33,269 nucleotides of DNA, from assembly GCA_021802045.1 (NCBI GenBank), contig JAKABB010000022.1:1-33269 (forward strand), read 5' to 3'. The DNA is from a bacterium. GTDB lineage: Bacteria > Chloroflexota > Dormibacteria > Aeolococcales > Bog-877. The notes under the pieces are model-generated. The model worked only from the letters and a program-made list of their open reading frames with translations. It had not been told where the DNA came from and did not search any database. A program made the translations under genes and the position numbers. Numbering within the stretch: the stretch's first letter is position 1; each line of letters opens with the position of its first letter. This document shows, piece after piece, positions 16,882-21,253 of this stretch.

Positions 16882-18120
16882 CTAGGCCAGGCCGCGCCGC
16901 CAGGCGGCCGGCACCTCCGGTCCGGCGGCGATCGTCCGGGCCCCGAGGAACCGCGCCAGCTCCTGGATGGCCCCGACCACCGGCCCGGCCAGAGCCGCGG
17001 CCGCCGCTGGGTCGCCCTCCAGGTGGACGGCCCGGAGCCGCAGCCGCTGCTGCCGGCGGTCGAGGACGGGGTCGAGCCGGCCCACCAGGCGGTCCCCATG
17101 CAGGATCGGCATCACGTAGTATCCGTGCCGGCGCTGGGCGGCCGGGACGTAGATCTCCATCCGGAAGTCGAAGTCGAAGAGCAGGCGGGTGCGGGGGCGA
17201 TCCCGGATCAGGTTGTCGAACGGCGAGAGCAGGGTCGTCCGCGGGGGGGCCGGCTGGTCGGCGAGCCGCTCCAGGCGGGGGAGGTCGTCGGCATGCACGT
17301 ACCACGGCCCCGGGAGGGCGCCGGTGGGGCCGGCGACCTCCACCGGGACGATGCGGCCGCGCGCCTGGAGCTGGCGCAGCACCGCGGGGAGGCCGGGGTA
17401 GTGGCCGCTGGTGAAGTGGCCGCGAATGTGTCCGGGGCGGGCCACGCCGAGGGCGCGCAGCGAACGCTCCGCGGCGCAGCGGACCGCGTTCGGGGTCGAG
17501 AGGCGCCCCCGGGGCGTGGTGGGCGGGAGCCAGCGCTCGGCCAGGTCCCAGAGCCGGTGGCCGCCCTGCCGCCCCGCGACCAGGACCCGCCCCTGGCGCC
17601 AGAGGAAGAAGAGCAGGCGGTCGACGGTGCGCCCGTCGGTCCAGCCCGGCGACGACCAGGCCACGGCGGCGGGGCCCCCCAGCTCGCGAGCGGGCAGGGG
17701 GCCGCGGCGCCGGAGAGCCAGCAGGGTCCGGCGGCGCAGGCCGGCGTTGTCCGCCAGCCACTGCCGCACCCGGCGCCCCTCCAGGGTCTCGGGGGCGGGA
17801 TAGGTGCGCATCCGCAGGCGGTGGAGGGGATAGTCCTCGGTGCAGACGATCGAGGCGGCGTGGGCCCAGTACTCGAAGAGGGCGCGCCGCTCCCAGAGCA
17901 GGCTGTCCAGCAGCTCCGGGCGGTAGCTGCCGAGACGGCTCCAGAGCACCAGCAGGGGGCTGCGGGCCACCGCCTGGATGGGGTCCAGCTGGAGGCAGCC
18001 GAGGCGGTGGACCAGGGCCAGCACGGCGTCGGCGTCGGGCGGGGACGCCGACCCGTCGTGGCCCGCCAGCTGCTGGCCGGCGATCGCCAGCCGCCGCGCC
18101 GTCGCCAGCGAGATCACCAT
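16882..18120 (-). CDS. YcaQ-like winged-helix DNA glycosylase family protein (HTH_42)
   Basis: The 412-residue protein belongs to the HTH_42/DUF1006 family of E. coli YcaQ (AlkX) and Streptomyces AlkZ, DNA glycosylases that unhook crosslinks and remove bulky alkyl adducts. Visible hallmarks are LGCLQLDPIQAVARSP with Q44-L45-D46, the catalytic QxD triad of the YcaQ-like branch (AlkZ has QxQ), ERRALFEYWAHAASIV, and SPFDNLIRDRPRTRLLFDFDFRMEIYVP near the C-terminus. I chose ATG 18120 over GTG 18129 because it begins at the first helix. It lies 46 bp upstream of coaBC on the same strand and diverges from the sigma factor at 18237. The exact substrate is unknown. Confidence 0.87.
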   Translation of the reverse strand: MVISLATARRLAIAGQQLAGHDGSASPPDADAVLALVHRLGCLQLDPIQAVARSPLLVLWSRLGSYRPELLDSLLWERRALFEYWAHAASIVCTEDYPLHRLRMRTYPAPETLEGRRVRQWLADNAGLRRRTLLALRRRGPLPARELGGPAAVAWSSPGWTDGRTVDRLLFFLWRQGRVLVAGRQGGHRLWDLAERWLPPTTPRGRLSTPNAVRCAAERSLRALGVARPGHIRGHFTSGHYPGLPAVLRQLQARGRIVPVEVAGPTGALPGPWYVHADDLPRLERLADQPAPPRTTLLSPFDNLIRDRPRTRLLFDFDFRMEIYVPAAQRRHGYYVMPILHGDRLVGRLDPVLDRRQQRLRLRAVHLEGDPAAAAALAGPVVGAIQELARFLGARTIAAGPEVPAAWRRGLA

Positions 18121-18236
18121 GGGGCGCACGGCCGCAGTCTGCGGCCCCGCGGCCGCCGGCCGCCACCCCCGGGGCGGCCAGAATGGGCCAGGGGCGTGTC
18201 AACCAGCCGGCGTGCCCGGCCGTCTGATAGGGCGAC

Positions 18237-18761
18237 GTGGACACCATGGCCAGCATCGACCGCCGTGACACCGACGCCGACCGCCGGGCCGACTTCGAGC
18301 AGTGGGTCCGGGCCGAGGACGCGCACCTCTATCGCGCCGCCCTGGCCATCCTCACCCGGCCGGACCTGGCCGCGGACGCCGTCCAGGACACCTTCGAGCG
18401 GGCCTGGCGGTCATGGGGGACGTTGCGGGCCGGCGAGAGTCGCCGGGCCTGGCTGACCCGAATCTGCATCCACCGCTCGATCGACCTCCGGCGGGCGGCA
18501 CGGCTGCGCCAGGCCACCGACCGCTGGCTGCGCCCGGCGGCCGACGACGGGCTGCCCCCCGCGTGGACCCTGGACTTCACCCGGGCCTACCGGCGGCTCT
18601 CGCACCGCCAACGGGCGGTGATCGCCCTGCACTACCTCCTCGGCTACACCCTCGACGAGAGCGCCGCGCTCCTCGGGGTGCGGCCGGGGTCGGCCCGGAG
18701 CCACCTGGCCCGGGCCCTGACCACCCTGCGCGAGGAGCTCTGTGATGCCGACGGATCCTGA
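18237..18761 (+). CDS. ECF-type RNA polymerase sigma factor
   Basis: A 174-residue SigE/SigM-like sigma-70 family protein that would redirect RNA polymerase to a small regulon. Region 2 is visible as YRAALAILTRPDLAADAVQDTFERAWRSW, and region 4 as LSHRQRAVIALHYLLGYTLDESAALLGVRPGSARSHLARALTTLREEL. No region 1.1 or 3. I chose GTG 18237, preceded closely by TAGGG; an in-frame ATG at 18246 is the alternative. The downstream DUF4232 gene begins before its stop codon, so the pair is translationally coupled, as expected for a sigma factor and its regulator. It diverges from the YcaQ-like gene across 116 bp. Confidence 0.9.
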   Translation: MDTMASIDRRDTDADRRADFEQWVRAEDAHLYRAALAILTRPDLAADAVQDTFERAWRSWGTLRAGESRRAWLTRICIHRSIDLRRAARLRQATDRWLRPAADDGLPPAWTLDFTRAYRRLSHRQRAVIALHYLLGYTLDESAALLGVRPGSARSHLARALTTLREELCDADGS

Positions 18762-19875
18762 GGCCCGCCTCCGGGAGGCACTGACCAGCCTGAACCAGAC
18801 GGAGGCGCCGGGGCACCTGCGGGCGGCCCTCCTGGCCCAGGGTGGCGGGCGGCGCCCCCGTCGCCTCGGGCCGCTCCCGGCCCTGGTCAGCGGCCTGGCC
18901 ACGCTGCTCGTGGTCGGGGGGACGCTGTACCTGGTGTCGGCCGCGACGCATCCGCAGCGGCTCCACCGGGCGCCCCGTCCGGCGGCCTCCACCCCCGTGA
19001 ACGGGACCACGGGCCGCTGCCACAGCGCCCAGCTGCGCCTCAGCGCCGCCGGCTCCAACGGCGGGGGCGGCAACGTGGTCCAAAACTACTGGCTGCGCAA
19101 CGCCGGGACCGTCCCCTGCACCCTCTACGGCTACCCCGGGGCCCGGCTCCTGGCCGCCGACGGGGCGCCCATGCCCACCACCGTCGTCCGCGGGCCCAAC
19201 CCGATCATGCCCCGTCAGGCGCCGGCCACGGTCACCCTGCGGCCCGGGCAGAGCGCCCAGTTCGTGCTCGGCTTCTCGCAGATCTCCCCCACCGGGACCA
19301 CCAGCTGCCCCATCGCCAGCCGCCTCGAGCTCACCCCCCCCAACGCCTACCACCCGCTCAGCGTCGCCGCCCGGATCCAGGCCTGCCAGGGCCGGCTCTT
19401 CGTGGGCCCGGTCACCACCGCGCCCACCGCGCCCGCGCCGCCGGGGGCCCCCGCCGGCGTGACCCGCTGCCGCAGCGCCCAGCTGCGGCTCAGCGCCGCC
19501 GGCTCCAACGGGGGGGGCGGCAACGTGGTCCTCTACTACCGGCTGCGCAACGCCGCCACCACCGCCTGCACCCTCTACGGCTACCCCGGGGCCCGGCTCC
19601 TGGCCGCCGACGGGGCGCCCCTGCCCACCACCGTCGTCCGCGGGCCCAACCCGATCATGCCCCGTCAGGCGCCGGCCACGGTCACCCTGCGGCCCGGGCA
19701 GAGCGCCCAGTTCGAGCTCGGCTTCTCGCAGCTCTCCCCCAGCGGGACCACCAGCTGCCCCATCGCCAGCCGCCTCGAGCTCACCCCTCCCAACGCCTAC
19801 CACCCGCTGCGCATCGCCGCCCGGATCCAGGCCTGCCAGGGCCGGCTCTTCGTCAGCCCGGTGGCACCCGGGTAG
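18745..19875 (+). CDS. Single-span membrane protein with two tandem DUF4232 domains, putative anti-sigma factor
   Basis: The 376-residue protein has a short cytoplasmic N-terminus, one membrane helix (about 45-66) and two exported DUF4232 domains (91-222 and 241-372) joined by a Pro/Ala linker. Each domain has the paired cysteines expected of DUF4232 (RCxSAQ, CTLYGYPGARL, SCPIAS, QACQG). The domains differ at about 14 of 130 residues. ATG 18745 is seven bases after GAGGAG and lies within the sigma gene. Coupling and topology suggest it holds the sigma factor at the membrane and senses an outside signal. The N-terminal region has no zinc motif (HxxxCxxC) of ZAS-type anti-sigma factors, so the role is inference. 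It overlaps soxR tail to tail by 23 bp. Confidence 0.75.
   Translation: MPTDPEARLREALTSLNQTEAPGHLRAALLAQGGGRRPRRLGPLPALVSGLATLLVVGGTLYLVSAATHPQRLHRAPRPAASTPVNGTTGRCHSAQLRLSAAGSNGGGGNVVQNYWLRNAGTVPCTLYGYPGARLLAADGAPMPTTVVRGPNPIMPRQAPATVTLRPGQSAQFVLGFSQISPTGTTSCPIASRLELTPPNAYHPLSVAARIQACQGRLFVGPVTTAPTAPAPPGAPAGVTRCRSAQLRLSAAGSNGGGGNVVLYYRLRNAATTACTLYGYPGARLLAADGAPLPTTVVRGPNPIMPRQAPATVTLRPGQSAQFELGFSQLSPSGTTSCPIASRLELTPPNAYHPLRIAARIQACQGRLFVSPVAPG
19015..19412 (+). repeat. DUF4232 tandem repeat, copy 1
   Basis: This 398-bp segment aligns without gaps to 19465-19862 at a constant offset of 450 bp. The stretch from the CTLYGYPG codons to the PGQSAQF codons is almost base-for-base identical. The remaining differences are scattered substitutions. 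Confidence 0.92.
19465..19862 (+). repeat. DUF4232 tandem repeat, copy 2
   Basis: Second copy of the 398-bp repeat, reading frame preserved. Its 3' end also encodes the final residues of soxR on the other strand, so the copy constrains two genes. Confidence 0.92.
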
Positions 19876-20320
19876 CGGGCGACCCCTCCAGCAGGTAGCG
19901 GGCACCGGGCCCGCGGGCCGCGGCGGCGTCGCCCGGGTTCCAGACCCGGCAGCGGCGCAGCGAGAGGCAGCCGCAGCCGATGCAGCCGTCGAGGTCGTCC
20001 CGCAGCCGCTCCAAGAGGATGATCCGCTCCTCCAGCCGCTGGCGCCAGCGGCGGGAGAGGCGTGTCCAGTCGGCCCGGGTCGGGGTGCGCCCGTCCGGCA
20101 GGCCGGCCAGCGCCTCCTCGACCTCCCGCAGGGTGAGGCCCACCCGCTGGGCGGTGCGGATGAAGGCGATCCGGCGCAGGGTGGCGGCCGGGTAGCGGCG
20201 CTGGCCGGCTGGCGAGCGCTGCGCCTGGACCAGGCCCCGCGACTCGTAGAAGCGCAGGGCCGAGGGGGCGACCCCGCTGCGCGCCGCCAGCTCGCCGATC
20301 GACAGCCAGCGCTCGGTCAC
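19853..20320 (-). CDS. soxR: Redox-sensing transcriptional regulator SoxR
   Basis: SoxR is a MerR-family activator that uses a [2Fe-2S] cluster to respond to redox-cycling compounds or superoxide. The 155-residue protein has the N-terminal winged helix (SIGELAARSGVAPSALRFYESRGL, then QRRYP), a dimerisation helix, and the cluster motif CIGCGCLSLRRC with Cys113, 116, 118 and 124, then NPGD as in E. coli SoxR. I chose GTG 20320; GTG 20341 would add seven residues and has AGGG five bases upstream. A perfect SoxR-box palindrome lies at 20351-20372, just upstream. Its 3' end overlaps the convergent DUF4232 gene. Confidence 0.93.
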   Translation of the reverse strand: MTERWLSIGELAARSGVAPSALRFYESRGLVQAQRSPAGQRRYPAATLRRIAFIRTAQRVGLTLREVEEALAGLPDGRTPTRADWTRLSRRWRQRLEERIILLERLRDDLDGCIGCGCLSLRRCRVWNPGDAAAARGPGARYLLEGSPATRVPPG

Positions 20321-20350
20321 GGGGCCACGGTACCACCCCACAGGGGCCCT

Positions 20351-20372: not shown

Positions 20373-20619
20373 GGAGCCTGACCCCATCCCCCCCCCTCTC
20401 GCTACCGCGATCCGCCACGGCTGACGGCGCAGCTGACCGGGGACGCGAAGCACGATCCCGCCGCCACCCCCACCCCGACCCTGCTCTGGCCACAGGACCC
20501 GCGGGTGGGGCGCGGGTCTGAGACGGCCCCAGCCGCTCAGCGACGCTTCCTGCGGCCGCTCGCCGGCACCGCAGGGATGGCCGAGCTGGACCGTCATGGG
20601 TGCAGCCTGCATGCATTCC

Positions 20620-20628
20620 TGGTACCCT
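20620..20628 (+). promoter_or_regulatory. Extended -10 element for antitoxin 1
   Basis: TGGTACCCT ends eight bases before the ATG at 20637. The TGn-TAnnnT pattern and the short distance imply transcription starting at or close to the A of the ATG, so the mRNA could be leaderless. The same nine bases precede the second antitoxin gene on the other strand. No convincing -35 was found. Confidence 0.5.
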
Positions 20629-20636
20629 GGGAGGCG

Positions 20637-20879
20637 ATGGCCAAGGTGATCCAGATCCGCGATGTGCCTGACGAGGTCCACGAGGCGCTGGCCAGCGCTG
20701 CCCAAGCACGGGGTCTGTCGCTGACCAAGTACATGCTGCGCGAACTGGAGCACCTGGCCACCCGGGCCCAGGTGGTGCACAGCAACGCCGGGGTGATCCG
20801 CGAGACCCAAGCCAAGGTCCACGCGCGCCTCGACCGGAGCACGATCCTGGCCGCCATCCACGAGGGCCGTGGCGATTGA
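20637..20879 (+). CDS. VapB/FitA-type antitoxin 1
   Basis: This 80-residue protein has an N-terminal DNA-binding segment of the ribbon-helix-helix type (MAKVIQIRDVPDEVHEAL, then ARGLSLTKYMLREL), followed by a C-terminal part likely to wrap the toxin. FitA-like antitoxins repress their own operon and neutralise a PIN-domain RNase. The ATG at 20637 is supported by family length and by the -10 element directly upstream; an in-frame ATG at 20577 is less likely. The toxin begins inside its stop codon. Confidence 0.83.
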   Translation: MAKVIQIRDVPDEVHEALASAAQARGLSLTKYMLRELEHLATRAQVVHSNAGVIRETQAKVHARLDRSTILAAIHEGRGD

Positions 20880-21253
20880 GGGTCGTGGATGCCGGCGTCA
20901 TCGTGGAACTGGTCGCCAGCGGCCTGGATCCCCACCGTCTCGGAGACGAGGAGCTGGTCGCCCCTCATCTCATCGACAGCGAGGTCACCAACGCCCTCCG
21001 GTTGCTCGTTCTCCGGGGTGCTCTGACCGAAGAGCAAGGCACCCTGGCCTCGGATGGCTTCACGCGTCTGATCCTCGGGCGATACCCGGCGGACTGGTTG
21101 CGACCGAGGATGTGGACGCTCCGCCACAACCTGAGTTCCTACGACTCGACCTACGTGGCGCTGGCAGAGATGCTCGGAGCGACGGCGCTCCTCACCACGG
21201 ACGTACGCCTGGCGCAGGCGCCTGGCATCAAGTGTCGCGTCGAAGTGATCTGA
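20876..21253 (+). CDS. VapC-type PIN-domain toxin 1
   Basis: A 125-residue PIN-domain ribonuclease. The four acidic metal-binding positions are visible: Asp5 in VVDAGVIV, Glu36 in DSEVTNAL, Asp90 in SSYDSTYVALAE and Asp109 in TTDVRLA. The start is TTG at 20876, overlapping the antitoxin stop as TTGA, and it begins directly at the first beta strand. Its cellular target (probably a specific RNA) cannot be read from sequence. Confidence 0.88.
   Translation: MRVVDAGVIVELVASGLDPHRLGDEELVAPHLIDSEVTNALRLLVLRGALTEEQGTLASDGFTRLILGRYPADWLRPRMWTLRHNLSSYDSTYVALAEMLGATALLTTDVRLAQAPGIKCRVEVI

Follow-up and report, generated by a model that had tools for sequence, protein, structure and literature searches.

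FecR-type regulators combine short cytoplasmic N-termini with one transmembrane (TM) helix, and CnrY works with a separate sensor, CnrX. Class I anti-sigma domains have an average length of 101 residues and about 44% of them lack the zinc motif, and anti-sigma domains shorter than 50 residues have been set aside as possibly belonging to class II (PMC7406223). CnrY grips its sigma factor with two helices, the first lying on sigma4 and the second on sigma2 (PMC7406223). As a rule, a membrane-anchored partner encoded next to an ECF gene acts as an inhibitor (PMC8103513). In Thermoanaerobacter tengcongensis, Tt-TolB, encoded directly downstream of Tt-rpoE1, binds Tt-RpoE1 through residues 1–39, crosses the membrane at residues 39–61, has a large outer domain and inhibits transcription (PMC3397946). 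It is already known that membrane anti-sigma factors can combine a short inner domain with one of various sensors.

The DNA analysed here (the window) is one whole contig of 33,269 bases with 75% G+C, one of the 206 contigs of a 3.0 Mb draft genome. Judged by the sigma factor, the named sequences closest to it are L078, L079 and L086, all from Candidatus Dormiibacterota contigs, and the window is taken to come from an uncultured Dormibacterota bacterium. As the original prediction had it, the window encodes an ECF sigma factor coupled to a membrane protein with tandem DUF4232 domains: the two genes overlap, Pfam recognizes the domains of both products and the partner has one TM helix (Table 1). 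We consider it probable that the pair forms a transmembrane signalling module in which the partner is a membrane anti-sigma factor, with a two-helix N-terminus for binding the sigma factor and with DUF4232 sensing on the outer side.

Table 1. Features of the sigma operon and its flanks, in positions of the window
Feature	Position	Strand	Basis or remark
AlkZ-like DNA glycosylase gene	16882-18129	minus	flanks sigma operon
Candidate ECF promoter, GTCAACC-N17-GTCTGA	18198-18227	+	motif common to relatives
ECF sigma factor gene	18237-18761 (start GTG 18237 or ATG 18246)	+	Pfam, NCBIfam, PDB profile
Putative membrane-anchored anti-sigma factor, 376 aa	18745-19875	+	overlaps sigma gene by 17 bp
Cytoplasmic two-helix domain and basic stretch, predicted sigma-binding part	18745-18879	+	AlphaFold, HMM, alignment
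Transmembrane helix, residues about 46-66	18880-18942	+	hydropathy 2.03; AlphaFold helix 47-66
DUF4232 copy 1, predicted extracytoplasmic beta-sandwich, 4 Cys	19018-19415	+	faster-changing copy
DUF4232 copy 2, predicted extracytoplasmic beta-sandwich, 4 Cys	19468-19865	+	closer to contig 117 lipoprotein
SoxR redox regulator gene	19853-20341	minus	TIGR01950, 196 bits; other flank of sigma operon

The soxR gene is convergent with the partner gene and overlaps its 3' end by 23 bp. Beyond it, at 20610-21253 on the forward strand, a small ribbon-helix-helix protein (FitA-like) and an adjacent PIN-domain protein, both scoring just under the cut-off, make up a toxin-antitoxin pair of the VapBC/FitAB type. 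Comparison with the neighbourhoods of the related loci L038, L039, L040, L041 and L057 gave matches limited to the sigma/partner region, and a search of a plasmid collection found no relative of the partner.

The sigma protein, 174 aa long, contains Sigma70_r2 (7.7e-10) and Sigma70_r4_2 (5.9e-11), both above the Pfam cut-off. It therefore falls within the ECF (group IV) factors, defined here as proteins of about 170–200 aa with sigma2 and sigma4 domains only, and a profile search of the PDB likewise matched it to ECF sigma factors. Among the NCBIfam models listed, the superfamily TIGR02937 alone passes; the score for the SigE family TIGR02983 is 89.1 bits against a cut-off of 141.55. The candidate promoter lies 10–39 bases upstream of the sigma start, and the transcript would be leaderless or nearly so. 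Its core, GTMAACC, is present upstream of 19 of 30 related sigma genes versus 0.57 expected in shuffles (maximum 3 in 500), and the spacer to an STCTRW-like element is exactly 17 in all seven full matches. In several of the other regions, the exact core is replaced by a near variant, for example GTAAGCA-N17-ATCTAT. Given that nine of the 30 regions (L042–L050) are from close relatives, these are not 30 independent cases, yet the motif is still found in several families. Its presence across relatives suggests that the sigma operon is autoregulated from this promoter. In the window's own genome, the pattern GTMAACC-N16-18-NTCT gave 11 sites and a reversed control pattern gave 8; this search returned no second convincing site, the window site being the single one just upstream of a fitting start, and we therefore claim no regulon.

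The partner gene may begin at GTG 18742, which would extend the overlap with the sigma gene to 20 bp, or at ATG 18745; GGAG stands before both, and the ATG is preferred. AlphaFold (mean pLDDT 71) places helices at residues 5–18 and 23–33, followed by the TM helix and two beta-sandwiches. The stretch GGGRRPRRLG lies just before the one hydrophobic helix of the protein, as in the positive-inside pattern, and the predicted topology supports the placement of DUF4232 outside the membrane that had been proposed; the four Cys of each domain are consistent with an extracytoplasmic location. Direct reading of residues 1–44 reveals no Cys and one His, and there is thus no HxxxCxxC motif of the ZAS type. 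The partner indeed lacks the zinc motif, as had been pointed out, although this is not unusual considering the share of class I domains without it. No anti-sigma family in Pfam matched any of the partners scanned, and none in NCBIfam matched the window partner. With the partner as query, a PDB sequence search gave no match, and a PDB profile search returned no anti-sigma chain at E up to 10, the domain being very short. Fold searches with the full model and with the DUF4232 domain retrieved generic Ig/FnIII-like sandwiches only (query TM-score about 0.4 or less), with RbmA, GH3 beta-glucosidases and a Bacillus proteinase inhibitor among the weak matches. As these are generic and weak, we draw no functional inference from them.

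A class-wide search of 110 genomes yielded a single lineage of about 60 sigma factors, all above 90 bits, with the next below 78, and the downstream genes were read for 58 of these (Ca. Dormiibacterota). A gene encoding a short N-terminus and a TM helix is next to the sigma gene in 57 of the 58, the remaining locus being cut by a contig end; as a TM helix close to the start was a requirement of the search, this feature is partly built in, but no locus with enough sequence failed. The related partner genes overlap or nearly abut the sigma gene, nearly always overlapping it, and their products carry an outer region behind roughly 36–63 cytoplasmic residues and a single TM helix. The original prediction had named, as evidence against it, conservation of a different anti-sigma gene next to the sigma factor in relatives. 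None was seen among these loci: the gene found there is of the same kind, with other outer domains.

In the alignment, the N-termini follow the rough pattern L-x-x-R-L-R-x-x-L-x(6)-P-x-P-x-x-L-x-x-R, then an Arg-rich stretch and the TM helix. An HMM of the N-terminus and TM helix, built from 28 relatives with the window left out, recovered the window protein with an E-value of 1.3e-7 among 276 window ORFs, the next being 0.095; without the TM helix, the domain E-value was 0.0012. This match indicates that the inner segment is homologous, with a strength that is modest once the TM helix is removed. Within the class, other ECF lineages too have partners of similar plan, and the plan is therefore wider than this lineage. 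For the N-termini of Clostridia partners, a profile comparison without the TM helix was not significant (probability 1.4%), and we claim no common descent with them. At L191 (G044:C144, 469-6921), two sigma factors of the lineage are encoded on opposite strands, about 1.5 kb from each other. At L043 (G056:C28, 1952-2236), the partner gene is cut to 95 residues just past the TM helix and a YCF48-like stretch is open in another frame, through a frameshift or an assembly error.

The outer regions of the related partners fall into at least 16 clusters that are mutually unmatched at E 1e-6. Pfam assigns DUF4232, YCF48/BNR, DUF4349 and HlyD among them, and nothing convincing to the others. On the sigma tree, the outer labels change 17 times (least possible 14; shuffled mean 37.7), which indicates that outer regions are passed on for some time before being replaced, the inner domain being the part that stays with the sigma factor. 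A search for other ECF-DUF4232 pairs, as originally proposed, found L038, L039, L041, L051, L017 and L023, in addition to a DUF4232-like case in L189. The window, L038 and L039 form a clade on the sigma tree (96/88), all with two DUF4232 domains; L041 and L051 have one each and are placed elsewhere on the tree, and the sigma factors of L017 and L023 belong to other lineages. A single origin of the DUF4232 partners is not rejected (AU test, p 0.066), and two captures are thus a parsimony count only. The suggestion of an uncharacterized anti-sigma class using DUF4232 is partly supported: for the anti-sigma role, support comes from the gene overlap, the conservation across loci, the conserved short N-terminus and the autoregulatory-type promoter. 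The class, however, is not defined by DUF4232, given that the conserved part is the cytoplasmic domain of ~45 residues with the TM helix, and DUF4232 is just one of the outer regions joined to it.

The sigma frame of L017 (G042:C103, 579-2016) is broken into two frames. L189 (Streptomyces sp. NBC_00568, reverse complement 110-2034) shows that comparable pairs exist beyond the phylum: its ECF gene is followed by that of a membrane protein whose outer domain weakly resembles DUF4232. In L053, L061, L062, L065 and their relatives, the outer region contains repeated 'YGTGSxTLPxV'-like units that match no Pfam family.

The window partner matches DUF4232 (PF14016) in two stretches, with 164.4 bits (gathering 27) and an E-value of 1.8e-48, and AlphaFold models the single domain as an Ig/FnIII-like sandwich (mean pLDDT 94). 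The two repeats, 450 bp apart, align without gaps over 398 bp, as first noted, with a DNA identity of 94.0% that drops to about 25–50% just outside. The encoded copies share 118 of 132 residues, far beyond chance; 20 codons differ, 14 of them amino-acid-changing, and the reading frame is open through both. The long, nearly identical core described earlier is also present, with one difference in codons 34–82, although with 20 differing codons a gap of that length is only borderline unusual (permutation p 0.07); six amino-acid changes are found in codons 22–33, which cover one strand and the following loop. The divergence between copies (dS 0.072, dN 0.056) supports the recent duplication that had been suggested, and ongoing gene conversion, its stated alternative, would look alike here; with a third-position G+C of 98%, dS probably understates the age.

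Free DUF4232 lipoproteins are encoded on contigs 117, 56, 43 and 202 of the same genome, that of contig 117 being the nearest to the window copies (58% identity). Where this paralogue serves as a guide to direction, it is copy 1 that has changed, the older state being retained in copy 2 at nearly all sites. The domain tree pairs the window copies as sisters (100/100) and groups them with the contig 117 lipoprotein (94/95) and not with the domains of L038 and L039. Two histories would account for this: the capture of a lipoprotein-type domain that later doubled, or the overwriting of one old copy by another. We give somewhat less than even weight to the second history, in which two old DUF4232 copies would have become nearly identical by conversion or re-duplication, and not through a first duplication of a captured domain. 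The closest sigma relatives, L038 and L039, each carry two copies deeply diverged from each other, which makes a two-domain ancestor plausible, whereas the grouping with the contig 117 lipoprotein is as expected for capture followed by doubling; the long branches on the domain tree weaken both readings. The relatives searched included no second genome of the same genus. Fragmented assemblies such as this one are error-prone at repeats longer than a read, and the copy number in a draft, metagenome-type genome might have been collapsed or expanded, but an artefact should give identical copies, and the codon differences within an open frame make this explanation very improbable.

Regarding function, the window partner has the same plan and size as Tt-TolB and is therefore taken as a minimal membrane anti-sigma factor; from this architecture and the Tt-RpoE1/Tt-TolB precedent, we infer that it binds and inhibits the sigma factor. 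In the cytoplasm, its N-terminus would bind the ECF sigma factor and keep it off RNA polymerase, and the two DUF4232 beta-sandwiches, predicted to lie outside the membrane, would act as a sensor or site of control. A signal at the outer part would lead to release of the anti-sigma factor or to its cleavage, possibly through regulated intramembrane proteolysis, and the freed sigma factor would transcribe its own operon first, from the candidate promoter. The genome encodes a member of the site-2-protease family (PF02163), although M50 proteases are present in 14 of 14 control genomes, so that this is weak evidence. The partner might instead be mainly an output, a DUF4232 envelope protein under the control of the sigma factor and not its inhibitor, as free DUF4232 lipoproteins are found in the same genome, the nearest outer domain is one of them and the partner matches no anti-sigma family. 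We regard this as unlikely, considering that those lipoproteins have lipobox-type signal peptides in place of a short cytoplasmic domain, and that an output protein would not need a cytoplasmic domain kept beside the sigma factor with 16 different outer regions. Nor is the sign of control fixed by these data: a positive co-sensor that brings the sigma factor to the membrane and on which its activity depends, as can be the case for FecR-like proteins, would share the short N-terminus and single TM helix. FecR-type systems, however, go with TonB-dependent receptors, none of which was seen beside the operon, and an inhibitor is the usual membrane-anchored partner beside an ECF gene (PMC8103513), which makes a co-sensor quite unlikely. 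A membrane anti-sigma factor is the reading we prefer.

More tentatively, and with more doubt than confidence, we propose that Dormibacterota use an undescribed family of two-helix anti-sigma domains of ~45 residues, absent from Pfam, that stays with one sigma lineage and has been joined to at least 16 outer regions. The window may represent an exchange in progress, with a DUF4232 domain related to that of the lipoprotein paralogue, recently doubled and with one copy diverging quickly. The literature searched, with partial coverage, contained no mention of DUF4232, no paper joining Dormibacter with sigma factors, and no description of this lineage, its inner domain family or a DUF4232 input. 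The proposal would give DUF4232 a role, and through exchange of the outer half of a very small anti-sigma factor, one ECF lineage of an uncultured phylum would change its input. Because the inner domain is short and the promoter spacing exact, both binding and regulon are open to direct tests in a heterologous host.

Compared with known systems, the DUF4232 lipoproteins (PF14016) share the outer domain, the contig 117 copy being the nearest, but they are free proteins with lipobox-type signal peptides, without a TM-linked cytoplasmic domain and without a sigma gene. The Streptomyces locus L189 also has an ECF gene followed by that of a TM protein whose outer part resembles DUF4232, although its cytoplasmic part is longer, its DUF4232 score of 25 bits is below the cut-off and its sigma factor belongs to another group. 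Class I anti-sigma factors (RseA, RskA, RsiW and ChrR) are likewise encoded next to the ECF gene, inhibit the ECF factor through an inner domain, a role inferred for the window partner, and are often membrane-anchored; their domain (ASDI, ~100 residues and four helices) contrasts with the about 45 residues and two predicted helices of the window partner. Class II members (CnrY and NepR) are closer in size, with fewer than 50 residues, two helices and no zinc, as in the predicted structure of the window partner, but there is no detectable PDB profile match, and the presumed sensor of the window partner is on the same chain, whereas that of CnrY is separate. Tt-RpoE1/Tt-TolB differs in its outer domain, which is TolB-like and not DUF4232, and in a 2-bp gap between the genes in place of the overlap in the window. 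The likeness is one of plan and size: in both, an ECF gene is directly followed by the gene of a single-TM protein with a very short N-terminus and a large outer domain.
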